A DNA stretch of 64,000 bases from Thalassococcus arenae (GTDB lineage Bacteria; Pseudomonadota; Alphaproteobacteria; Rhodobacterales; Rhodobacteraceae), in the NCBI RefSeq assembly GCF_019104745.1, contig NZ_JAHRWL010000001.1, forward strand, positions 682,001 to 746,000. Reading direction: 5' to 3'. This document shows positions 5,624 to 63,915 of the stretch, one piece after another. How positions within the stretch are numbered: position 1 is the first letter of the stretch; the number at the start of each line of letters is the position of its first letter. The translations under genes were made by a program, and so were the position numbers. Below the pieces are notes generated by a model that saw nothing but the letters and a program-made list of their open reading frames with translations, was not told the DNA's origin and made no database searches.

Positions 5624-6563
5624 TCTCGATGCCTTGCGCGATGCGGTGGCCGCCCACGGCCGGGTGGCACGGGTCGTCGTGGCCGAGGTGCGCGGCTCGG
5701 CCCCGCGCGAGGTGGGTGCGGCGATGCTGGTCTGGTCGGAATGCGACGGTTTCGGGCAGTCGGGCACGATCGGCGGCGGCGCGCTTGAATACGAAGCGGT
5801 GGCACGGGCCTTCGCGCGGCAGGGGCTTTCGCGGCACCCTCTCGGGCCGTCCCTGGGGCAATGCTGCGGCGGTGCGGTGGCGCTCTGGACCGAGCATTTC
5901 GACGCGGCCGCATTGGACGCCCTGCAAGGCGAAACCGTCTTTGCGCGCGGACCGGGCGCAATGCCGTTGGGCGTGGCGCGTATTCTGGATCGTGCCCGAG
6001 CGCGCGGCGAAGCACCGGTGGCGCAACTGGTGCAAGGCTGGATGGTAGAGGCCATCGCCGCGCAGCGCATGCCGCTCTGGATCTGGGGCGCGGGCCATGT
6101 CGGGCGGGCCATCGTCGACGTGGTCGCGCCGCTGCATCGACACGACATCACCTGGGTGGATACCGGCCCGGGACGGTTTCCGCAGGACATCCCCGCCGGT
6201 GTGACCGCCCTGCCCGCCACGGACCCGGTGCTGTTGATGCCGCGCGCGCCCGACGACGCGGCCCACCTGGTGCTGACCTACAGCCACGAACTGGACCTGC
6301 GCCTGTGCGATGCCCTGCTGCGCCACAGGTTCGGATGGGCCGGGCTGATCGGGTCGGACACCAAAAAGGCGCGCTTTGCCAGCCGGCTGCGCGCGCTTGG
6401 CCACGCCGATGCAACCATCGCGCGCATCGCCTGCCCGATCGGCGACAAATCCCTGGGCAAGCAGCCCCAGGCCATTGCCATCGGGGTCGCCGCGCAGCTA
6501 CTGAAGATGGGGACAGGGAAGAACACGGCTTGGACGACATCCTCCTCAGCATCGACGGCCTGA
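5613..6563 (+). CDS. xdhC: Xanthine dehydrogenase accessory protein XdhC
   Basis: Chaperone that binds the molybdenum cofactor, promotes its sulfuration and inserts it into XdhB. It has 316 residues, the usual size. The N-terminal part carries VVVAEVRGSAPREVGAAMLV and SGTIGGGALEYEA; a C-terminal Rossmann-like part starts at LWIWGAGHVGRAIVDVVAP (GxGxxG) and ends with CPIGDKSLGKQPQAIAIGVAAQLL. The start ATG at 5613 overlaps the xdhB end by 11 bases, and its 3' end overlaps the next gene by 34 bases if the TTG start is right. This is consistent with one transcript. Confidence 0.94.
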   Translation: MALDLDALRDAVAAHGRVARVVVAEVRGSAPREVGAAMLVWSECDGFGQSGTIGGGALEYEAVARAFARQGLSRHPLGPSLGQCCGGAVALWTEHFDAAALDALQGETVFARGPGAMPLGVARILDRARARGEAPVAQLVQGWMVEAIAAQRMPLWIWGAGHVGRAIVDVVAPLHRHDITWVDTGPGRFPQDIPAGVTALPATDPVLLMPRAPDDAAHLVLTYSHELDLRLCDALLRHRFGWAGLIGSDTKKARFASRLRALGHADATIARIACPIGDKSLGKQPQAIAIGVAAQLLKMGTGKNTAWTTSSSASTA

Positions 6564-8065
6564 CCAAGGCCTATCCCGGCGTGATCGCCAATGACGGCGT
6601 GTCCTTCGCCATCCGGCGCAGCGAGATTCACGCGTTGCTGGGCGAAAACGGCGCGGGCAAGTCCACACTGGTCAAGATGATCTTCGGACTGGTCGCGCCG
6701 GACAGCGGTTCGATGACCTACGATGGCGCCCCCTATGCGCCGGCCGAACCCAGCGAAGCCCGGCGCGCCGGGGTGGCGATGGTGTTTCAGCATTTCTCGC
6801 TTTTCGACGCGCTCAGCGTGGCCGAGAACGTGGCCCTGGGGATGGAAAAGCCGCCCGGCCTTCGCGACCTGGCCCGGCAGATACGCGCGGTATCGGAAAC
6901 CTACGGCCTGCCGCTCGATCCCGGCCGCATCGTCGGCACCTTGTCGGCGGGCGAACGCCAGCGGGTCGAGATCATCCGCTGCCTGCTGCAGAATCCGCGC
7001 CTGCTGATCATGGATGAGCCGACCAGCGTTCTGACGCCGCAGGAAGTCGACATCCTGTTCCAGACCCTGCGCAAGCTGAAGGCCGAGGGCACATCGATCC
7101 TCTACATCTCGCACAAGCTGGAAGAAATCCGCGCGCTGTGCGACCACGCCACGATCTTGCGGCTGGGCAAGGTGGTAGGCACCTGCACACCGGCCGAGAC
7201 GACGGCACGCGCGATGGCGGAAATGATGGTCGGGGCGAGCTTTTCCGCTCCGCAGGCCCGCGGCACGACACCGGGCGAGGTGATGCTGGAGGTCAGGGGG
7301 CTGAGCCTGCCGGCGCCCGGCGCCTTCGGCACGCCGTTGCGCGATGTCGGTTTCGCAGTGCGCACAGGCGAAATCCTGGGGATCGGCGGCGTGGCGGGCA
7401 ACGGGCAGGATGAATTGCTGGCGGCGTTGTCGGGGGAACGCGCGGCACCCGCCGGGTCGATCTGGCTGGAAGGGACCGATGTCAGCCGGGCCGGCCCGGT
7501 GGCACGGCGGGGAATGGGGTGTTTGTCGGGCCCCGAAGAACGGCTGGGCCACGCCGCGGCACCCAACATGACGTTGACGGAAAACGGCATCCTGACGGCG
7601 GCTTTGCGTGAACGGCTGGTGCACCGAGGTTTCATCCGCTGGCCGCAGGCGCGCGCTTTCGCGCAACGCGTGATCGACCGGTTCGACGTGCGCACCCCGG
7701 GCACCGAGGTGGCGGCACGGGCGCTGTCGGGCGGCAACCTGCAGAAATACGTGGTCGGCCGGGAAATCGTGCAGAATCCCCGCGTGCTTGTCATCAACCA
7801 GCCGACCTGGGGCGTCGACGCCGCCGCCGCAGCGGCGATCCGGCAGGCGCTGCTGGACCTGGCGGCGGACGGTGCCGCGATCGTTGTCATCAGTCAGGAT
7901 CTGGACGAACTGATGGAAATCGCCGACCGTTTCGCGGCGTTGAACGAAGGTCGGCTGTCGCCCGCCCGGGCGGTGTCAGACCTGGACATCGAGCAGATCG
8001 GGCTGATGATGGGCGGCGCGCATGACATGGAAGTCGCCCATGTCGGTTCGGCGGGGGCTGCATGA
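6530..8065 (+). CDS. BMP-family nucleoside/purine ABC importer, ATP-binding protein (two ABC domains)
   Basis: Drives uptake by the permeases encoded just downstream; the family (YufO/NupO, RbsA-like) has two fused ABC domains. The first has Walker A GENGAGKST, signature LSAGERQRVEI and Walker B LLIMDEPTSVL. The second has a decayed Walker A (GGVAGNGQDE), signature LSGGNLQKYVVG and NQPTWGVD instead of a DE pair, which is usual for this family. There is no good ATG before the first strand; TTG at 6530 gives LDDILLSIDGLTKAYPGV and has AGGGA upstream, so I chose it (511 residues). Linkage to xdhABC points to xanthine, hypoxanthine or a nucleoside as substrate; that part is inference. Confidence 0.93.
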   Translation: MDDILLSIDGLTKAYPGVIANDGVSFAIRRSEIHALLGENGAGKSTLVKMIFGLVAPDSGSMTYDGAPYAPAEPSEARRAGVAMVFQHFSLFDALSVAENVALGMEKPPGLRDLARQIRAVSETYGLPLDPGRIVGTLSAGERQRVEIIRCLLQNPRLLIMDEPTSVLTPQEVDILFQTLRKLKAEGTSILYISHKLEEIRALCDHATILRLGKVVGTCTPAETTARAMAEMMVGASFSAPQARGTTPGEVMLEVRGLSLPAPGAFGTPLRDVGFAVRTGEILGIGGVAGNGQDELLAALSGERAAPAGSIWLEGTDVSRAGPVARRGMGCLSGPEERLGHAAAPNMTLTENGILTAALRERLVHRGFIRWPQARAFAQRVIDRFDVRTPGTEVAARALSGGNLQKYVVGREIVQNPRVLVINQPTWGVDAAAAAAIRQALLDLAADGAAIVVISQDLDELMEIADRFAALNEGRLSPARAVSDLDIEQIGLMMGGAHDMEVAHVGSAGAA

Positions 8066-25367: not shown

Positions 25368-27281
<1,914 letters not shown>

Positions 27282-44617: not shown

Positions 44618-44899
44618 TCAGCGACCGGGGGCCGGCGCGGATGCCGCCGCCACCGCATCGCGAAAGGCGGCCTGCGCGCCGGGCAGGATATGGTCGATCT
44701 GGTCGGCCGAGAGCGGCGTGCCGTCGGGCCGGAAAGCCAGCGCGACATCCCCCGGCCGCGCGACAAGCAGCGCGACGGGCCGCTTGCCGCCATGGCACAG
44801 CAGCGCGTGGTCCAGCCGTTTCGCCCGCACGATCTGCTGCGTCAGCGCCGCGATCCAGACCGGGCCGATGCGGCGCGGGGTGTCGAGCGCGACGGTCAT
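44618..44899 (-). CDS. Small hypothetical protein next to DUF2953
   Basis: 93 residues, no signal peptide or transmembrane helix. ATG 44897-44899 overlaps the stop of the DUF2953 gene by 4 bases, so it is probably the third gene of that operon. The sequence (VWIAALTQQIVRAKRLDHAL, GKRPVALLVARPGDVALAF) is unfamiliar to me. The coding capacity is supported by the tight overlap and by the gap-free frame; I have no domain evidence. Confidence 0.65.
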   Translation of the reverse strand: MTVALDTPRRIGPVWIAALTQQIVRAKRLDHALLCHGGKRPVALLVARPGDVALAFRPDGTPLSADQIDHILPGAQAAFRDAVAAASAPAPGR

Positions 44900-45465
44900 C
44901 GCCGCACCCTGGCGAAGGCCCAGCCAAGGCGCATCGCCGGCGGCACGAGCCGGACCGGGCGCAGCCGCAGCGCGCCTTCGGCCCGGCCCTGCAGGCAGGC
45001 CCCGGAAAACTCGGGCGCGATATCCAGTTCGACGCGCCGGCATCCGGCGATGCCGAAGCGCAGTGGCGCGATCAGCCCGTATAGCTGGCCGGTATCGGCG
45101 GGATCGTCGAAGCCGAATGTCCCGGCCACCCGCAAGGATCGGATGCGCACGACGCGCAGCAGGTCGCGGGCAAAGCGCAGGATCGCGCCGACCGGCGGCC
45201 TGCGCCGCCCGGTGTCCTTGCCGCGCCGCCGATCCCGGGATGCCGGCCTTGGCGGTTTGGGGCGCCTGGCCTTGCGCGGGCGGTCGGTATCCGACAGCGT
45301 GATCCAGGGCACGCCCCCGCCCAACAGGCCGAGCTGCACGCGCAGGCGCGCATGCCCGGCCCGTTCGGCGACAAAGCGCAGTTCGACCGGCAGGACCAGC
45401 ACGGCCAGCAGCGCCGCGCCGAGACCGGCAAGCAGCGCGCCCAGGGTCGGCCAGAGCCAGGTCAT
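44896..45465 (-). CDS. DUF2953 domain protein
   Basis: 189 residues. One N-terminal membrane segment (LWPTLGALLAGLGAALLAVLVLP) followed by a soluble domain that has a basic stretch (RKARRPKPPRPASRDRRRGK) and the DUF2953 motif FGFDDPADTGQLYGLIAPL. In Bacillus, YtfI (DUF2953) is encoded beside the GerW protein YtfJ; here the GerW-like gene sits 9 bases upstream. No function is established in non-sporeformers. Confidence 0.8.
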   Translation of the reverse strand: MTWLWPTLGALLAGLGAALLAVLVLPVELRFVAERAGHARLRVQLGLLGGGVPWITLSDTDRPRKARRPKPPRPASRDRRRGKDTGRRRPPVGAILRFARDLLRVVRIRSLRVAGTFGFDDPADTGQLYGLIAPLRFGIAGCRRVELDIAPEFSGACLQGRAEGALRLRPVRLVPPAMRLGWAFARVRR

Positions 45466-45474
45466 GACCGCGGC

Positions 45475-45837
45475 TCAGGCCTCGGCACCCTTGTCGTCGG
45501 GCTTGCCGCTGCGGCGGGTTTCCATGACGCGGACGGCGGTATCGCCGATGGCGTTGGCAAGGCTGGTCGCCGCGCCCTTGACGCCTTCGACGCGGGCGCC
45601 GTTCTGGTCGATGATGATCGCGCCCAGCGGCTTGATCCCGCCGCCCGCGCCGGTGCCGGCGCCGTTGCCGGACTTGGCGTCGCTGCCGCCGCCCGCGCCG
45701 AAGCCGAAACCGTAGCTGACGATGGGTATCACCGTGGCGCCATCGCGTTCGATCGGGTCGCCCAGCACGTTGCGCGCATTGAGCAGTTTTTCCAGTTCTT
45801 CGACGCTGCCCTTCAACAGGCGTTCCACCTCGTCCAT
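45475..45837 (-). CDS. GerW/YtfJ-family protein in a non-sporeformer
   Basis: 120 residues. The pattern NVLGDPIERDGATVIPIVSY, GFGFGAGGGS and GGGIKPLGAIIIDQNG matches the sporulation protein GerW (YtfJ) family closely. A helix (MDEVERLLKGSVEELEKLLN) leads in. The ribosome site GGAGGA is 6 bases from the ATG. Rhodobacterales do not sporulate, so the role must be different; in Bacillus it concerns germination. Upstream, a short CCTAAA/TTTAGG dyad at 45948-45968 precedes the divergent membrane protein gene. Confidence 0.85.
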   Translation of the reverse strand: MDEVERLLKGSVEELEKLLNARNVLGDPIERDGATVIPIVSYGFGFGAGGGSDAKSGNGAGTGAGGGIKPLGAIIIDQNGARVEGVKGAATSLANAIGDTAVRVMETRRSGKPDDKGAEA

Positions 45838-46029
45838 CGGTCTTCCTCCTGACTGGGAAAATGTCGTCGCAGTCTAGCAGGGCGCGCATGGTCGGGATTG
45901 ACCCGGAACAGGCGCGGCGCGAAGTGCCGCGACAGACCCGAAAAATTCCTAAAACCCGATTCTTTAGGGTCGCATTAAGCGCGCCGCGCGCAGCCTGTCG
46001 CCGGGTGAGTATTTGCGTGGGGGCGCAAG

Positions 46030-47211
46030 ATGAATATCGAGAACCTGCTGGAGTTTTCCGGCCCGATCGGCCTGCTTTGCGCGCTGATCGTCTGTTTCGG
46101 CGAAGTGCGGCGCCTGCTGATCGGACCGAACCAGGCGCAATATATCATGGGACTGGTCTTTGGACTGGTGTCGATGCTGGAAATGCAGATGCCGATTTCG
46201 CCGTTCGAGGGCATCATCGTGGATCTGCGCAACGTGCCGATCGTGCTGGCCGGCGCGTTCCTGGGCTGGCGCGGGCTGGCCACCTGCCTGTTGGTGGCGG
46301 TCCTGACGCGCGCCCATATCGGCGGGGCGGGCGCCGTTTCGGGCATCATCGGGATGCTGATCGCGGGCTATGCCGGGGCGGTCTGGGATCGCGCCACGCG
46401 GCAAAGATTGCGGCGCAGTTTCCCGCAATTGCTGGGCCTGGGCGCGTTGGTTCCGGTGTCTTTCCTGGGCGTCCTGTTCCTTCCTGCCGAGGTCGCGACA
46501 TGGTTCCTGTTCAACGCCGCGCCGGTGCTCGGGCTGATCTACCTGACCGTCATCCCGTTGGTGGGCGGGCTGCTGCAGCGCGAGATCCTGCGGATCGAAG
46601 CGGAATTGCACCCGACGACGGCGCCGATCTGTCCCGAAAGCGGCCTGCTGCCGCCGGCGGCCTTTGCTCGCGGGATCGTGCAGATGGCGATCAGCGGCGC
46701 CAGGGACGGCGTCGCCGGCATCCTGGTGGTCGAGCCGGTCTATCCGCGCTGGCTGGCGGTGTTCTGGGGCGGTTCGGCGCGCGGGCGCGTGCAGGAAGCG
46801 ATGGCGCTTGGCCTGGCCGGACGGCTGCGCCATGCCGACCAGATCGGGCTGTCCGAAGGCGGGCGGCTGCTGGTGCCGCTGAGCGCGTCCGAGGCCGCGG
46901 GCGGGGCGCTGGACCTTGGCGCGCTGGCCCATTGCCTGAGCCGGTCGGAACTGCACCTGTCGCTGGGCCAGAGCGTGCAGCTGCATGCGCGGCTGCGGGT
47001 TCTGACGATCGGGAACGCCGCCGATATCCGCGCCTTGCTGCAAGGGGTCGACCGGGCGGACACGCTGGGCCGGAACCTGTGCGGACACGAGCAGGATTGC
47101 GCCGCCGCACCGGCCTGCGCCAAACCCTGCGCGACGAGCGACGGGCTGTTCGACAAGTACGACCTGGCGCTGACGACGTCGCAGGCGGTGACGGTGAAGC
47201 TGCGCGACTGA
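46030..47211 (+). CDS. 5TM-LYT-type membrane protein with decayed GGDEF-like domain and Cys cluster
   Basis: 393 residues. Residues 1 to about 190 hold five to six hydrophobic segments with DLRNVPIVLAGAFLGWRGLA and GGAGAVSGIIGMLIAGYAG, the pattern of the 5TM-5TMR_LYT sensor domain. The next part (SGLLPPAAFARGIVQMAISG, GILVVEPVYPRWLAVF, EAMALGLAGRLRHADQIGLS, EGGRLLVP) lines up with a GGDEF domain, but the GGDEF loop reads EGGRL, so cyclase activity is unlikely. Near the C-terminus C351, C357, C363 and C367 make C-x5-C-x5-C-x3-C. Ribosome site GGGGGCGCAAG. No clear function; a sensor is likely. Confidence 0.72.
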   Translation: MNIENLLEFSGPIGLLCALIVCFGEVRRLLIGPNQAQYIMGLVFGLVSMLEMQMPISPFEGIIVDLRNVPIVLAGAFLGWRGLATCLLVAVLTRAHIGGAGAVSGIIGMLIAGYAGAVWDRATRQRLRRSFPQLLGLGALVPVSFLGVLFLPAEVATWFLFNAAPVLGLIYLTVIPLVGGLLQREILRIEAELHPTTAPICPESGLLPPAAFARGIVQMAISGARDGVAGILVVEPVYPRWLAVFWGGSARGRVQEAMALGLAGRLRHADQIGLSEGGRLLVPLSASEAAGGALDLGALAHCLSRSELHLSLGQSVQLHARLRVLTIGNAADIRALLQGVDRADTLGRNLCGHEQDCAAAPACAKPCATSDGLFDKYDLALTTSQAVTVKLRD

Positions 47212-50353: not shown

Positions 50354-51067
50354 ATGGAATTCGTTCTGGCCTATGCCGCGGGCCTGCTGACGCTGATCAA
50401 CCCTTGCGTCGTGCCGGTGCTGCCCATCGTGATCGCGACGGCCCTGCAGGCCAGCCGCTGGGGTCCGGCGGTGATGGCGGCGGGGCTGAGCCTGTCCTTC
50501 GTCGTGCTGGGCGTTTCCGTCACGGCGTTCGGGCACCTGATCGGGCTGGATGTCGAGACGGTCGCGCGGGCGGGCGCGGTGTTGATGGTGCTGTTCGGCC
50601 TGGCGCTGTTGCTGCCGCAGGCGGGTGCGGTGCTGGCCGCGGCCACCGCCGGGTTGTCGGCGCGGGCCGATGGCGGGCTGGACCGCGTCGACCGGAGCGG
50701 CCTGGGCGGGCAGTTCCTGGGCGGGTTGCTGCTGGGCGCGGTCTGGAGCCCCTGCATCGGGCCGACCCTGGGCGGCGCCATCGCGCTGGCCAGCCAGGGC
50801 GAGAACCTGGCCCGCGCCACCGGCATCATGGTGTTCTTCGCGCTTGGCGTGTCGACGCTGGTCCTGGGCCTGGCCCATGGCACGCGCGGCGCCATCGGGC
50901 GCCACAACGCCGCCCTGCGCCGCGCCGCGCTGCATTTGCGCCCGGTGCTGGGCGCGGCCTTTGTCCTGGTCGGCGTGGCGCTGCTTCTGGAGTGGCACCA
51001 CGTCATCGAAGCCTGGCTGATCGGGGTGATGCCGGCCTGGCTGATCGACCTTTCCGTTTCCGTCTGA
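50354..51067 (+). CDS. ccdA: CcdA-family cytochrome c biogenesis / thiol-reduction membrane protein
   Basis: 237 residues with about six transmembrane segments. LLTLINPCVVPVLPIVIATA and VWSPCIGPTLGGAIALASQG hold the two active cysteines that pass electrons from cytoplasmic thioredoxin to the periplasm. A short loop version of DsbD. The following gene encodes a periplasmic thioredoxin, its probable acceptor. Confidence 0.9.
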   Translation: MEFVLAYAAGLLTLINPCVVPVLPIVIATALQASRWGPAVMAAGLSLSFVVLGVSVTAFGHLIGLDVETVARAGAVLMVLFGLALLLPQAGAVLAAATAGLSARADGGLDRVDRSGLGGQFLGGLLLGAVWSPCIGPTLGGAIALASQGENLARATGIMVFFALGVSTLVLGLAHGTRGAIGRHNAALRRAALHLRPVLGAAFVLVGVALLLEWHHVIEAWLIGVMPAWLIDLSVSV

Positions 51068-58245: not shown

Positions 58246-60543
58246 ATGAAATTTCGCTTTCCGATCGTCATCATCGACGAGGACTTCCGCTCCGACAACT
58301 CCTCGGGCCTGGGCATCCGCGCGGTGGCCGAGGCGATCGAGCGGGAAGGGTTCGAGGTTCTGGGCACGACGAGCTATGGCGACCTGTCGCAATTCGCGCA
58401 GCAGCAATCGCGCGCCAGCGCCTTTGTCCTGTCGATCGACGACGAGGAATTCACCCCCGGCCCCGATCTGGACCCCGCCGTGGTCAATCTGCGCAATTTC
58501 ATCGAGGAGGTGCGCTGGAAGAACGCCGATGTGCCGATCTACATCTACGGCGAGACCAAGACCAGCCGCCACCTGCCCAACGATATCCTGCGCGAGCTGC
58601 ACGGCTTCATCCACACCTACGAGGACACCCCGGAATTCGTGGCCAAGCACATCGTTCGCGAAGCCAAGTCCTATCTCGAGGGCATTCAGCCGCCCTTTTT
58701 CAAGGCGCTGCTGGATTACGCCGAGGACGGTTCGTATTCCTGGCACTGCCCCGGCCATTCCGGCGGCGTGGCGTTCCTGAAAAGCCCGATCGGGCAGATG
58801 TATCACCAGTTCTACGGCGAGAACATGTTGCGCGCCGATGTCTGCAACTCGGTCGAGGAACTGGGCCAGTTGCTCGATCACAACGGTGCCATCGGCGCGT
58901 CGGAGCGCAATGCGGCGCGGATCTTCAACGCCGATCACTGCTTTTTCGTCACCAACGGCACCAGCACGTCGAACAAGATGGTCTGGCATCACACCGTGGC
59001 TCCGGGCGACGTGGTGGTCGTCGACCGCAACTGCCACAAGTCGATCCTGCATTCGATCATCATGACCGGCGCGATCCCGGTCTTTCTCAAACCGACGCGC
59101 AACCATTTCGGCATCATCGGCCCGATCCCGCGCGCGGAATTCGAGATCGAGGCGATCCGCAAGAAGATCCGCGAAAACCCCCTGCTGTCCCATGTCGACG
59201 CCGACAGCGTGAAGCCGCGCATCCTGACGCTGACGCAGTCGACCTATGACGGCGTGTTGTACAACACCGAGGTCATCAAGGAGGTGCTGGACGGCTATGT
59301 CGAGAACCTGCATTTCGACGAGGCCTGGCTGCCCCATGCCGCGTTCCATCCGTTCTATGGCACCTATCACGCGATGGGCCGCAAGCGCGGGCGCCCGGCC
59401 CATTCGGTGACCTATGCCACGCAGTCGATCCACAAGCTGCTGGCGGGGATTTCGCAGGCCAGCCACGTGCTGGTGCAGGACAGCCAGGACACCAAGCTGG
59501 ACCGGCACCTGTTCAACGAAGCCTACCTGATGCACACCTCGACCAGCCCGCAATACAGCATCATCGCCAGCTGCGACGTGGCGGCGGCGATGATGGAGCC
59601 GCCGGGCGGCACCGCGCTGGTCGAGGAAAGCATCATGGAAAGCCTGGATTTCCGCCGCGCGATGCAGAAGGTCGACGCCGAATACGGCAATGACTGGTGG
59701 TTCCAGGTCTGGGGGCCGGACGCGCCCGAAGAGGAAGGCATCGGCCGGACCAAGCAATGGGTGCTGCGCCGCACCGATGCCGATGGCGTGCAGCAGGCCG
59801 ATGGCGAGGACAGCTGGCACGGTTTCGGCGACATGGCGCCGGGTTTCAACATGCTGGACCCGATCAAGGCGACGATCATCACTCCCGGCCTCAACATCGA
59901 CGGCCGGTTCGAGGAGGAAGGCATTCCCGCCTCGATCGTCACCAAGTACCTGGCCGAACATGGGGTCGTCGTCGAGAAGACCGGGCTCTACAGCTTTTTC
60001 ATCATGTTCACCATCGGCATCACCAAGGGCCGCTGGAACACGCTGTTGACCGAGTTGCAGCAGTTCAAGGACGACTACGCCAAGAACCAGCCGATGTGGC
60101 GCGCGATGCCGGAATTCTGTGCCAAGCATCCGCGATATGAACAGATGGGCCTGCGCGACCTGTGCCAGCATGTACACGCGTTGTATTCGAAATACGACGT
60201 GGCGATCCTGTCGACCGAGATGTATCTGAGCGAGCTGACACCGGCGATGAAGCCCAGCGATGCCTTTGCCTGCATCGCCGCCCGCAAGACGCAGCGCGTG
60301 CCGATCGACGATCTGGAAGGGCGGATCACAACCAGCCTGGTCACGCCCTACCCGCCCGGCATTCCGCTGCTGATCCCCGGCGAGGTGTTCAACAGGCGGA
60401 TCGTGGATTATCTGCGCTTCAACCGGACCTTCGCCCGGGAATGCCCGGGTTTCGAGACCGATATCCACGGTCTGGTGCAGGAAACGGACGAACACGGCAA
60501 CGTCCAGTTCTTCGCCGATTGCGTGGCCGAGACCGCGACCTGA
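58246..60543 (+). CDS. Orn/Lys/Arg decarboxylase (biodegradative type, PLP)
   Basis: 765 residues. N-terminal receiver-like wing domain (FPIVIIDEDFRSDNSSGLGI), then the large PLP domain with SWHCPGHSGGVAFLKSPIG, FVTNGTSTSNKMVWHHTVAP, HFDEAWLPHAAFHPFYGTYH and the PLP lysine in TYATQSIHKLLAGISQASHV. C-terminal domain ends with YPPGIPLLIPGEVFNRRIV. Produces putrescine, cadaverine or agmatine; which substrate is not decidable here. ATG 58246 has GGAG 7 bases upstream. The monocistronic layout is suggested by the terminator before it. Confidence 0.93.
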   Translation: MKFRFPIVIIDEDFRSDNSSGLGIRAVAEAIEREGFEVLGTTSYGDLSQFAQQQSRASAFVLSIDDEEFTPGPDLDPAVVNLRNFIEEVRWKNADVPIYIYGETKTSRHLPNDILRELHGFIHTYEDTPEFVAKHIVREAKSYLEGIQPPFFKALLDYAEDGSYSWHCPGHSGGVAFLKSPIGQMYHQFYGENMLRADVCNSVEELGQLLDHNGAIGASERNAARIFNADHCFFVTNGTSTSNKMVWHHTVAPGDVVVVDRNCHKSILHSIIMTGAIPVFLKPTRNHFGIIGPIPRAEFEIEAIRKKIRENPLLSHVDADSVKPRILTLTQSTYDGVLYNTEVIKEVLDGYVENLHFDEAWLPHAAFHPFYGTYHAMGRKRGRPAHSVTYATQSIHKLLAGISQASHVLVQDSQDTKLDRHLFNEAYLMHTSTSPQYSIIASCDVAAAMMEPPGGTALVEESIMESLDFRRAMQKVDAEYGNDWWFQVWGPDAPEEEGIGRTKQWVLRRTDADGVQQADGEDSWHGFGDMAPGFNMLDPIKATIITPGLNIDGRFEEEGIPASIVTKYLAEHGVVVEKTGLYSFFIMFTIGITKGRWNTLLTELQQFKDDYAKNQPMWRAMPEFCAKHPRYEQMGLRDLCQHVHALYSKYDVAILSTEMYLSELTPAMKPSDAFACIAARKTQRVPIDDLEGRITTSLVTPYPPGIPLLIPGEVFNRRIVDYLRFNRTFARECPGFETDIHGLVQETDEHGNVQFFADCVAETAT

Positions 60544-60610
60544 TCGAAGTCAAGGAACACATGCGCATCTCGTGATTTGTCAGCGTGGAAACGCAAGACG
60601 GAGTCACGAG

Positions 60611-61512: not shown

Positions 61513-63915
61513 CTAGCCGCGCAGCACCCCGCCCGTCGCCTTGGTCACCTTGTCGACGATCCTGGCCGACACGGCTTCGATGTCGGCGTCCTTGAGGGTC
61601 TTTTCCGTGGGCTGAAGCCGCACGGTGATGGCCAGCGATTTCTTGCCCGCGCCGAGGCTTCCGCCGATGAATTCGTCGAAGACGCGGACATCCTCGATCA
61701 GCGTCTTGTCGGCACCGGCGGCGGCGTTGACCAGGGTCAGCGCTTCGACATCGGCATCCACCACGAAGGCGAAATCGCGTTCCACCGCCTGCAGATCGTT
61801 CAACGCCAGGGCCGGCCGGGTCGACCCGGCCTTGCGCGGCAGCGGCACTTCGGCGGGCCAGAGGGTGAAACCCATCGCGGGGCCCTTCACATCCAGCGCA
61901 CGCAGCACGCGGGGATGGATTTCGCCGAACACCGCCAGCACCTTTTTCGGGCCGAGGCAGATCATGCCGTGCCGGCCCGGATGCCACCAATCGCTGGCGC
62001 CGCGCAGGATCTGCGCCTTGGCGGGGGCACCGATGGCGGCCAGCACGGCCTCGCAATCGGCCTTGGCGTCATACAGGTCGACCGTGCGGCTGTTGCCGTG
62101 CACATCCTTGGGGCCGGTGCGGCCGACCAGCAGGCCGGTGACCAGCAGGTGCTGTTCACCGGGTTCGCCACCGTGAAACGCGTGACCGACCTCGAACAGC
62201 GCGAGATCCATGAAGCCGCGCGCCTGGTTGCGTGCCGCGGCCTGAAGCAGGCCGGGCAGCAGTGCCGGGCGCATGTGGCTCATCTCGGAACTGATCGGAT
62301 TGGCCAGCATCGTCGCGTCATCACCGCCGCTGAACAGCGCCGCCGCGTGACTGTCGATGAAGCTGTAGGTGACGCATTCGTTGTATCCAAGTTGTGCGCA
62401 CGTGCGCCGTGCCGCCTGTTCGCGTTTCTGCATTGGCGACAGGATCGGTTTCGGCACGCCGGCGTTCATCCGCGGCAGCGGCTGACCCTTGAGCTTGGTC
62501 AGCGAGGCGATGCGCGCGACTTCCTCGACCAGGTCGGCTTCGCCCATCACGTCGGGCCGCCAGGATGGGACATGGGCAAGGTTGCCCTCCATCTTGAAGC
62601 CGAGCGCGGTCAGGGTCTGGCGCTGGTCGGATTCGGGAATGTCCATGCCCACCAGGCTGACGACGCGCGCGGGATCGAGCCGGTAGCTGCGCGCGGTGTT
62701 CGGCACCTTGCCCGCCGTCACCACGTTCGACGGCTCGCCGCCGCAGAGATCGAGGATCATCTGCGTCGCGTCTTCCAGCGCCTGCATGTTGTAGGCCGGA
62801 TCGATGCCGCGTTCGTTGCGATAGCGCGCGTCGGAATTGATCTTGAGCGCGCGGCCGGTATTGGCGATCTGGATGTGGTCCCAGACGGCGGCTTCGAGAA
62901 AGACATTGACCGTCTCGCGCGTGCAGCCGGTGGCCAGCCCGCCCATGATGCCGCCGATGCTTTCGATGGCCTTGTCGTCCGAAATGACCACCTGCCCGGC
63001 CGAGAAGGTGTAGGTCTTTTCGTCCAGCCCCACCAGCGTGTCGCCGTCAGCCGCGCGGTGCACCCGCAGGTTGCCGGTGACCTTGTCGGCGTCGAAGACG
63101 TGCAGCGGGCGGTTGCGGTCGTAGGTGAAGAAATTGGTGATGTCCACGAGCGCCGAGATCGGCCGCAGCCCGATGGCCTTGAGCCGGTCCTGCAGCCATT
63201 GCGGGCTGGGGCCGTTCTGCACGCCGCGGATCAGCCGGCCGGCGAAAACATGGCAGCCGCCCGCGCCCGCCGTGTCGGCGTCGATGGTGACGGTGATCGG
63301 GCAGGGATACTGCCCCTCGACCCGTTCCTGCGGCAGCGGTTTGAGCGTGCCGAGGCCGCGCGCGGCCAGATCGCGGGCGATGCCGTGCACCCCCAGGGCG
63401 TCCTGGCGGTTGGGGGTGATGGCGATCTCGATCACCGGGTCGACCTTGGCAGGGTCGTTTTCGGCCAGCCAGTCGGGGAAGGTCTGGCCGACCTCGCCCG
63501 AGGGAAGCTCGATGATGCCGTCATGTTCGTCCGACAGCTCCATCTCGCGTTCACTGGCCATCATGCCGTGGGATTCGACGCCGCGGATATTGCCGACCTT
63601 GATGGTGGTGTCGATGCCGGGCACGTAGGTGCCGGGCTTGGCCACGACGACGGTGATGCCGGTGCGGGCGTTGGGCGCACCGCAGACGATCTGTTTCTCG
63701 CCCTCGTCGGTCAGGACGCGGCAGACCTTGAGCTTGTCGGCATCGGGGTGCTTTTCGGCATGCAGCACCTTGCCGATGGTGAAATCGGCCAGCCTTGCCG
63801 CCGGGTTCTCGATCCCTTCGACCTCGAGCCCCAGATCGGTGAGCGTCTCGGCGATCTCGTCCACGGAGGCCGTGGTGTCGAGGTGGTCTTTCAGCCAGGA
63901 GAGGGTGAATTTCAT
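61513..63915 (-). CDS. pheT: Phenylalanyl-tRNA synthetase beta subunit
   Basis: 800 residues. MKFTLSWLKDHLDTTASVDE is the normal start; the tRNA-binding (EMAP-like) domain is at residues about 40-150 (HPDADKLKVCRVLTDEGEKQ), B3/B4 editing domain follows, with the B5 domain near ARVVSLVGMDIPESDQRQTL. The C-terminal FDX-ACB anticodon-binding domain has RDFAFVVDADVEALTLVNAA. Forms the alpha2beta2 enzyme with PheS, whose gene should lie upstream off the right edge. Confidence 0.97.
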   Translation of the reverse strand: MKFTLSWLKDHLDTTASVDEIAETLTDLGLEVEGIENPAARLADFTIGKVLHAEKHPDADKLKVCRVLTDEGEKQIVCGAPNARTGITVVVAKPGTYVPGIDTTIKVGNIRGVESHGMMASEREMELSDEHDGIIELPSGEVGQTFPDWLAENDPAKVDPVIEIAITPNRQDALGVHGIARDLAARGLGTLKPLPQERVEGQYPCPITVTIDADTAGAGGCHVFAGRLIRGVQNGPSPQWLQDRLKAIGLRPISALVDITNFFTYDRNRPLHVFDADKVTGNLRVHRAADGDTLVGLDEKTYTFSAGQVVISDDKAIESIGGIMGGLATGCTRETVNVFLEAAVWDHIQIANTGRALKINSDARYRNERGIDPAYNMQALEDATQMILDLCGGEPSNVVTAGKVPNTARSYRLDPARVVSLVGMDIPESDQRQTLTALGFKMEGNLAHVPSWRPDVMGEADLVEEVARIASLTKLKGQPLPRMNAGVPKPILSPMQKREQAARRTCAQLGYNECVTYSFIDSHAAALFSGGDDATMLANPISSEMSHMRPALLPGLLQAAARNQARGFMDLALFEVGHAFHGGEPGEQHLLVTGLLVGRTGPKDVHGNSRTVDLYDAKADCEAVLAAIGAPAKAQILRGASDWWHPGRHGMICLGPKKVLAVFGEIHPRVLRALDVKGPAMGFTLWPAEVPLPRKAGSTRPALALNDLQAVERDFAFVVDADVEALTLVNAAAGADKTLIEDVRVFDEFIGGSLGAGKKSLAITVRLQPTEKTLKDADIEAVSARIVDKVTKATGGVLRG

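Follow-up and report, generated by a model that had tools for sequence, protein, structure and literature searches.

The closest described relatives of the genes reported here are GerW (YtfJ) of Bacillus and YtfI, which we take to be the DUF2953 protein of that genus. Both families are already known, and GerW is also known outside the spore formers. Ruminococcus flavefaciens, Methanoperedens and Fibrobacter make no spores. GerW-family proteins have been mentioned in passing for all three (PMC3672088; PMC11337218, for a Methanoperedens plasmid/genome; PMC5442110). In B. subtilis, ytfI and ytfJ are listed together in the SigF regulon, as given in the available text of PMC3097244. The corresponding text of PMC4366231 describes GerW as soluble in B. 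subtilis spores, reports normal germination for mutants of B. subtilis and B. megaterium that lack gerW, and states that the role of the protein 'remains to be determined'. The germination role attached to GerW in the preliminary description of the locus is therefore contradicted in two Bacillus species, and we consider that the label should go. Moreover, in the excerpts available, GerW belongs to the proteome found bound to RNA in sporulating B. subtilis (PMC12456014), and a DUF2953 protein appears in the spore inner membrane of B. cereus (PMC8624511). These two observations would be in keeping with a function during dormancy or energy limitation but prove nothing for the genes described below. 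No function for DUF2953 was found in print, and a search of the open-access full-text literature found no paper on a GerW-DUF2953-third-gene trio, a GerW-like third protein or FNR control of these genes.

The window analysed here, a stretch of 64,000 nucleotides from Thalassococcus arenae, carries exactly three genes, and no other feature of note, at positions 44618-45837 of its minus strand. The first (45475-45837, minus strand) encodes an acidic GerW-domain protein of 120 aa (pI 5.0), with a glycine-rich loop between two beta hairpins (about residues 45-66; 45640-45705, minus strand) that is visible in the sequence and modelled by AlphaFold with low confidence (pLDDT < 50 at residues 47-65). 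The gene for a basic DUF2953 membrane protein of 189 aa (44896-45465, minus strand; pI 11.9) follows after 9 nt. The third gene (44618-44899, minus strand) encodes a strongly basic protein of 93 aa (pI 10.7), and its start overlaps the DUF2953 stop in an ATGA sequence (44896-44899, minus strand). The presence of this trio in a lineage without spores, with an overlapping third gene, is thus as first described. The divergent neighbour of gerW (46030-47211) encodes a 5TM-5TMR_LYT membrane protein according to Pfam.

The GerW and DUF2953 matches are both significant, since each exceeds its curated Pfam cut-off: GerW reached 51.2 bits against PF09579 (Spore_YtfJ; E 1.6e-13, cut-off 25 bits), and the second protein 28.5 bits against PF11167 (DUF2953; E 1.6e-6, cut-off 22 bits). 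A GxxDPxxTGxxxG segment is conserved in DUF2953 (69 aligned proteins). Against TIGR02874, the NCBIfam equivalog for the sporulation protein GerW, the window protein scored 46.5 bits, well under the cut-off of 116.3.

To collect further loci, the window GerW was scanned against bacterial and archaeal genome contigs, which yielded 77 loci; 82 were later in hand. All three genes were found in 75 of these 82, without exception in one order and on a single strand, and within 2 kb in 74 cases. The 75th complete locus, L058, has an inserted ORF of 364 aa (6553-7647), probably a transposase, which separates gerW from a truncated DUF2953 frame; the trio appears to be disrupted there. The seven loci without the full trio are L043, L073 and L079, which lie at or near contig ends, L004 and L005, which are alphaproteobacterial GerW genes of another kind, the archaeal L081 and the Armatimonadota-labelled L082. 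The overlap of 4 nt between DUF2953 and the third gene recurs in 64 of the 73 distinct loci from alphaproteobacteria. The genes flanking the trio differ from locus to locus, the most frequent family among them, PEP synthase, being found in 11/74 loci.

The distribution is sparse. Within the class Alphaproteobacteria, GerW was detected in 5/240 genomes and DUF2953 in 3/240, all three of which also have GerW; within the same family, GerW occurs in 14/198 genomes, and all 14 carry the whole trio. Moreover, gerW matches were found on ten plasmid records (nine Leisingera, one Sulfitobacter), and the three plasmid loci inspected each have GerW, DUF2953 and a small downstream gene. Overall, the trio is a real, self-contained gene unit, conserved as had been supposed, and it is patchy and mobile, not simply retained. 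The preliminary description had spoken of retention of the pair, which is the wrong word because GerW is so infrequent and the trio sometimes plasmid-borne. A phage or defence origin was considered and dropped, as no match was found in phages, viral contigs, PHROGs or PADLOC.

These data also bear on the reading that the database name invites, namely that the trio is a germination or sporulation protein persisting as a functionless leftover. The family name and the SigF control of ytfI and ytfJ speak for it, but the mutants mentioned above germinate normally, the frame, order and promoter box of the trio are kept across dozens of loci, and the window GerW does not reach the TIGR02874 cut-off. 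We regard this explanation as extremely improbable.

The third gene had been described as coding for an unknown small protein; according to profile comparisons, this protein is not a third, unrelated family. The Pfam scan assigned no family to the third protein of the window, none of the 73 alphaproteobacterial third proteins matched PF09579 at E <= 0.1, and ten archaeal third proteins gave three weak matches below the cut-off (best E 0.02). By the curated threshold the third protein is not a member of PF09579; it is nonetheless GerW-like. The profile of 73 third proteins aligned with archaeal GerW with a score of 32.6, which was reached by none of 150 column shuffles (mean 10.2, maximum 16.7), the reversed profile scoring 10.9. 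The same profile was not significant against alphaproteobacterial GerW (10/150 shuffles reached the score) and weak against Armatimonadota-type GerW (4/150).

A second profile was built from archaeal third genes, 16 of which were kept, before profile comparison, from 23 candidate ORFs downstream of DUF2953. It matched archaeal GerW (probability 96, pair E 2.6e-9), Armatimonadota-type GerW (94, 1.1e-7), the alphaproteobacterial third protein (93, 2.9e-7) and alphaproteobacterial GerW (87, 4.4e-6), with 0/60 shuffles reaching the score in each case, and it should be noted that selection by position, frame and a visible GerW-like motif, partly by eye, favours such matches. Against DUF2953, the negative control, it found nothing (20/60 shuffles reached the score). 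We also searched the 23 unselected ORFs: the alphaproteobacterial third-gene model matched two (L149, 7.5e-11; L155, 2.5e-6), the archaeal GerW model three (L167, L155 and L150, 5.6e-5 to 1.6e-4) and the alphaproteobacterial GerW model one. The third gene of L155 is thus matched by both the third-gene HMM and the archaeal GerW HMM, the latter at 8.8e-5. Judged from these profiles, the small protein is related to GerW very distantly, and the link runs through archaeal intermediates in the same operon slot. Because it has neither the N-terminal helix nor the glycine-rich loop of GerW (Gly 9 percent, versus 18-19 percent in GerW), we call it mini-GerW. Matches of the third-gene profile to DARPin/ankyrin proteins in the PDB sequence search were attributed to composition, since no matched stretch passes on its own.

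The AlphaFold model of DUF2953 is of good quality (mean pLDDT 93.1, pTM 0.76) and has a single N-terminal membrane helix (residues 4-24; 45394-45456, minus strand) followed by a beta-beta-beta-alpha-beta-alpha-beta-beta-alpha domain. A hydrophobic segment is present at the N-terminus of 69/70 alphaproteobacterial and 35/35 archaeal DUF2953 proteins. Foldseek searches of the model against the PDB and BFVD gave no match with E <= 0.001. The best VIA match had a Z of 5.1 over 86 residues (rmsd 6.5), and we took the IspF-like and tubulin-like matches (Z 3.8-5.1) to carry no information. For GerW the model is of low quality (mean pLDDT 68), and no known fold was assigned from it, its best match having a Z of 3.7. 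The PDB sequence search gave nothing convincing for either protein.

A C-terminal hydrophobic segment, called with a simple hydrophobicity threshold chosen in this analysis, is present in 23/26 GerW proteins without an adjacent DUF2953 versus 3/136 with one. The 23 comprise 19/19 Armatimonadota-type, 4/5 archaeal and 0/2 alphaproteobacterial proteins; the Armatimonadota-type set gives 16/20 when a different threshold is applied and the duplicate L082/L098 is retained. The associated Fisher P of 1e-21 is overstated, since the correlation rests on about two lineages. In the lineages whose GerW has no adjacent DUF2953, no DUF2953 was found anywhere in the genomes (0/43 and 0/7). For example, the Armatimonadota-type loci L082 and L130-L148 have a GerW with a conserved C-terminal membrane helix in a genome without DUF2953. 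Against the pattern, DUF2953 is missing for L004, L005 and L187 as well, yet their GerW has no C-terminal helix. Since GerW mostly has its own C-terminal helix where DUF2953 is absent, DUF2953 probably supplies the membrane tether of GerW. In alphaproteobacteria the charges flanking the DUF2953 helix (+1.29 versus -0.06) favour a cytoplasmic domain by the positive-inside rule; in archaea (+0.03 versus -0.23, with the C-flank more positive in 15/35) the rule is nearly silent.

The region upstream of gerW was then compared with the FnrL consensus of Rhodobacter capsulatus, (T/C/A)TGA-N6-TCAA, as given in the available text of PMC4634722. This consensus is present at -90 to -60 from the gerW start codon in 42/73 distinct loci versus 0-1/73 in seven control windows of equal size, which makes gerW a candidate member of the FnrL/Dnr regulon, judged by consensus at promoter distance. 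The strict palindrome TTGA-N6-TCAA starts in the same interval in 30/73 distinct loci, where 0.45 would be expected from the rest of the regions. In the window, the degenerate box CTGTTCCGGGTCAA (45898-45911, read on the minus strand and recorded without a strand) starts 74 nt before the gerW start codon and has one mismatch to the published consensus, at the fourth position. The looser form (T/C/A)TGnn-N4-nnCAA is absent at -90 to -60 from 28/73 loci; among 15 loci taken from genome draws, some of which overlap the 73, 11 have it at -67 to -86. A sigma-32-like promoter upstream of gerW showed no enrichment (8/88 versus 9.8 in shuffles). An FNR-type box cannot, as a motif, tell FnrL from Dnr, and Fnr and Dnr sites are treated together in the accessible text of PMC5398030. 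The promoter evidence thus far described, read from sequence, points to low-oxygen physiology.

Boxes of this type are also frequent beyond the gerW promoter. With that promoter masked, 77 strict palindromes were counted in 840 kb around the trio, versus 0-13 for 11 permuted palindromes. The density is about 0.92 per 10 kb around the trio. By comparison, 14 whole genomes hold 903 sites in approximately 57.6 Mb, or 0.16 per 10 kb; this is an approximately six-fold difference, in which the whole genomes are not all those of the organisms of the 74 trio loci. Further FNR-like sites of the relaxed form TTGAY-N4-RWCAR lie in the window at 27019-27032, 50387-50400, 60540-60553 and 61727-61740; this pattern was written after the gerW site had been viewed, so the excess in the window (5 versus 0.62) is not independent.

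The neighbours of the trio include PEP synthase, Hsp20 and AMP-binding ligases; on plasmids, an ATP synthase operon, a CbpM/DnaJ pair and universal stress proteins are found beside it. In a Pararhodobacter-like group (L009, L016, L018, L020, L039, L054, L058, L064, L069 and L075), the trio is followed by what we take from their sequence to be groES-groEL-like genes. On a plasmid of Sulfitobacter sp. SK012 (L190, 6703-19693), the trio is flanked by genes for a universal stress protein and a formate/nitrite channel and, at its other end, by an F-type ATP synthase operon; 20 kb of this plasmid hold seven TTGA-N6-TCAA boxes. According to the available parts of PMC5398030 and PMC4634722, FnrL is known to target genes for universal stress proteins.

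The enrichment of boxes around the trio, and not just at gerW, could mean that they are merely a feature of the island, and that the trio is a mobile accessory cassette for a niche trait unrelated to oxygen. Its patchiness (14/198 family genomes) and the ten plasmid records would agree with such a cassette, but the box keeps a fixed distance from gerW despite differing neighbours, and we consider this explanation rather unlikely.

Another alternative would rescue the idea of an envelope process, namely that the trio is an accessory to a MacB/FtsX-type ABC exporter moving lipids or other envelope material. Permeases of the FtsX/MacB type are found near the trio in 8/75 alphaproteobacterial loci, four in each of two arrangements, and in 11/41 archaeal loci; as the genome of the window has 9 FtsX-domain matches in 3.7 Mb, chance alone would place one in approximately 2-3 percent of stretches of 12 kb. 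However, the transporter loci come from a pair of alphaproteobacterial groups and, in archaea, mostly from a single clade, and thus represent only about three independent events, and no transporter lies near most trios, which makes an exporter accessory improbable in our estimation. The transporter loci, with three arrangements in all, are L025, L036, L041 and L048, then L035, L044, L057 and L062, and, in archaea, L081 and part of L150-L168.

The reading that we favour is that GerW forms part of a complex anchored in the membrane and produced when oxygen is low, a prediction to which we give about an even chance. The three genes would form one translationally coupled operon read as a single transcript, and the products would assemble at the cytoplasmic face of the inner membrane as a complex. 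DUF2953 would be the single-pass anchor with a folded soluble domain, on which the acidic GerW and the small basic mini-GerW may assemble. In Rhodobacterales, low oxygen would switch the operon on through a regulator of the FNR family (FnrL or a Dnr), and the complex would most likely help energy-limited cells to survive anoxia. Such a role is suggested by the predicted FNR-type control and the siting of the trio among other low-oxygen and stress genes.

As to its cargo, we can only guess at RNA or protein held or protected at the membrane, RNA being suggested by a single proteomic study, that of sporulating B. subtilis cited above. In a narrower form of this favoured reading, GerW itself would be an RNA-binding protein that DUF2953 ties to the membrane and that keeps transcripts or ribosomes intact while cells are dormant or anoxic. 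The strongly basic partners DUF2953 and mini-GerW of the window would agree with RNA binding, as does the proteomic study, but GerW itself is acidic, and no nucleic-acid-binding fold stood out for it, although its model is poor; this version is, in our judgement, unlikely.

To our knowledge, no archaeon forms endospores. In the archaeal phylum of genome G436, GerW is present in 95/246 genomes, DUF2953 in 87/246 and both in 85/246. In the phylum to which the Armatimonadetes-labelled MAG G437 belongs, GerW is present in 24/43 genomes and DUF2953 in 0/43. A concatenated GerW and DUF2953 tree, midpoint-rooted only, separates an alphaproteobacterial clade (support 0.975) from an archaeal one (0.999), and a recent transfer of the pair between the two groups is unsupported. 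The complex outlined above may serve as the same device in anaerobic archaea, and Bacillus would use the pair in the forespore. More broadly, GerW-DUF2953 is possibly an ancient bacterial and archaeal membrane device for cells short of energy, in anoxia or dormancy, and not a spore system: a duplicated, degenerate GerW would have become its third subunit in two domains of life, and endospore formers would have recruited it into the forespore. We hold this wider view tentatively, as something short of an even chance.

What is new here is the GerW likeness of the third protein, the reading of DUF2953 as an anchor and the FnrL-type box before gerW. Since the trio and its low-oxygen boxes are found in marine bacteria, sometimes on plasmids, its deletion is testable without sporulation, and the locus provides a hypothesis about anoxia for such a test. 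The annotation 'spore germination protein GerW' in an organism that makes no spores is not evidence of spores.

The locus can finally be set against the known systems. With GerW/YtfJ of Bacillus, the window protein shares the Pfam domain PF09579; it differs in belonging to an organism without spores, in lying under an FNR-type box, in being followed by DUF2953 and mini-GerW, and in staying below the TIGR02874 cut-off. With YtfI, the second protein shares the PF11167 match and one N-terminal membrane helix, and differs in that its gene is the middle one of a trio. The archaeal pair has the same gene order and strand as that of the window, DUF2953 adjoining GerW downstream in 85/85 genomes with both. 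Together with the 14/14 family genomes, this agrees with the preliminary description in so far as the pair behaves as a unit outside spore formers; its proposal of an envelope or small-molecule process is not borne out, as no result points firmly there and the promoter points elsewhere. A third gene is found in 16/35 fetched archaeal loci with DUF2953, 12/16 share the 4-nt overlap seen in the window, and the archaeal third proteins are nearer to GerW than the alphaproteobacterial ones are. The terms 'GerW' and 'sporulation' are absent from the text of PMC5398030 available on the FnrL/Dnr regulon. The trio nevertheless resembles the FnrL/Dnr low-oxygen regulon of Rhodobacterales in the same box upstream of gerW and in neighbours that include PEP synthase, Hsp20 and universal stress proteins.
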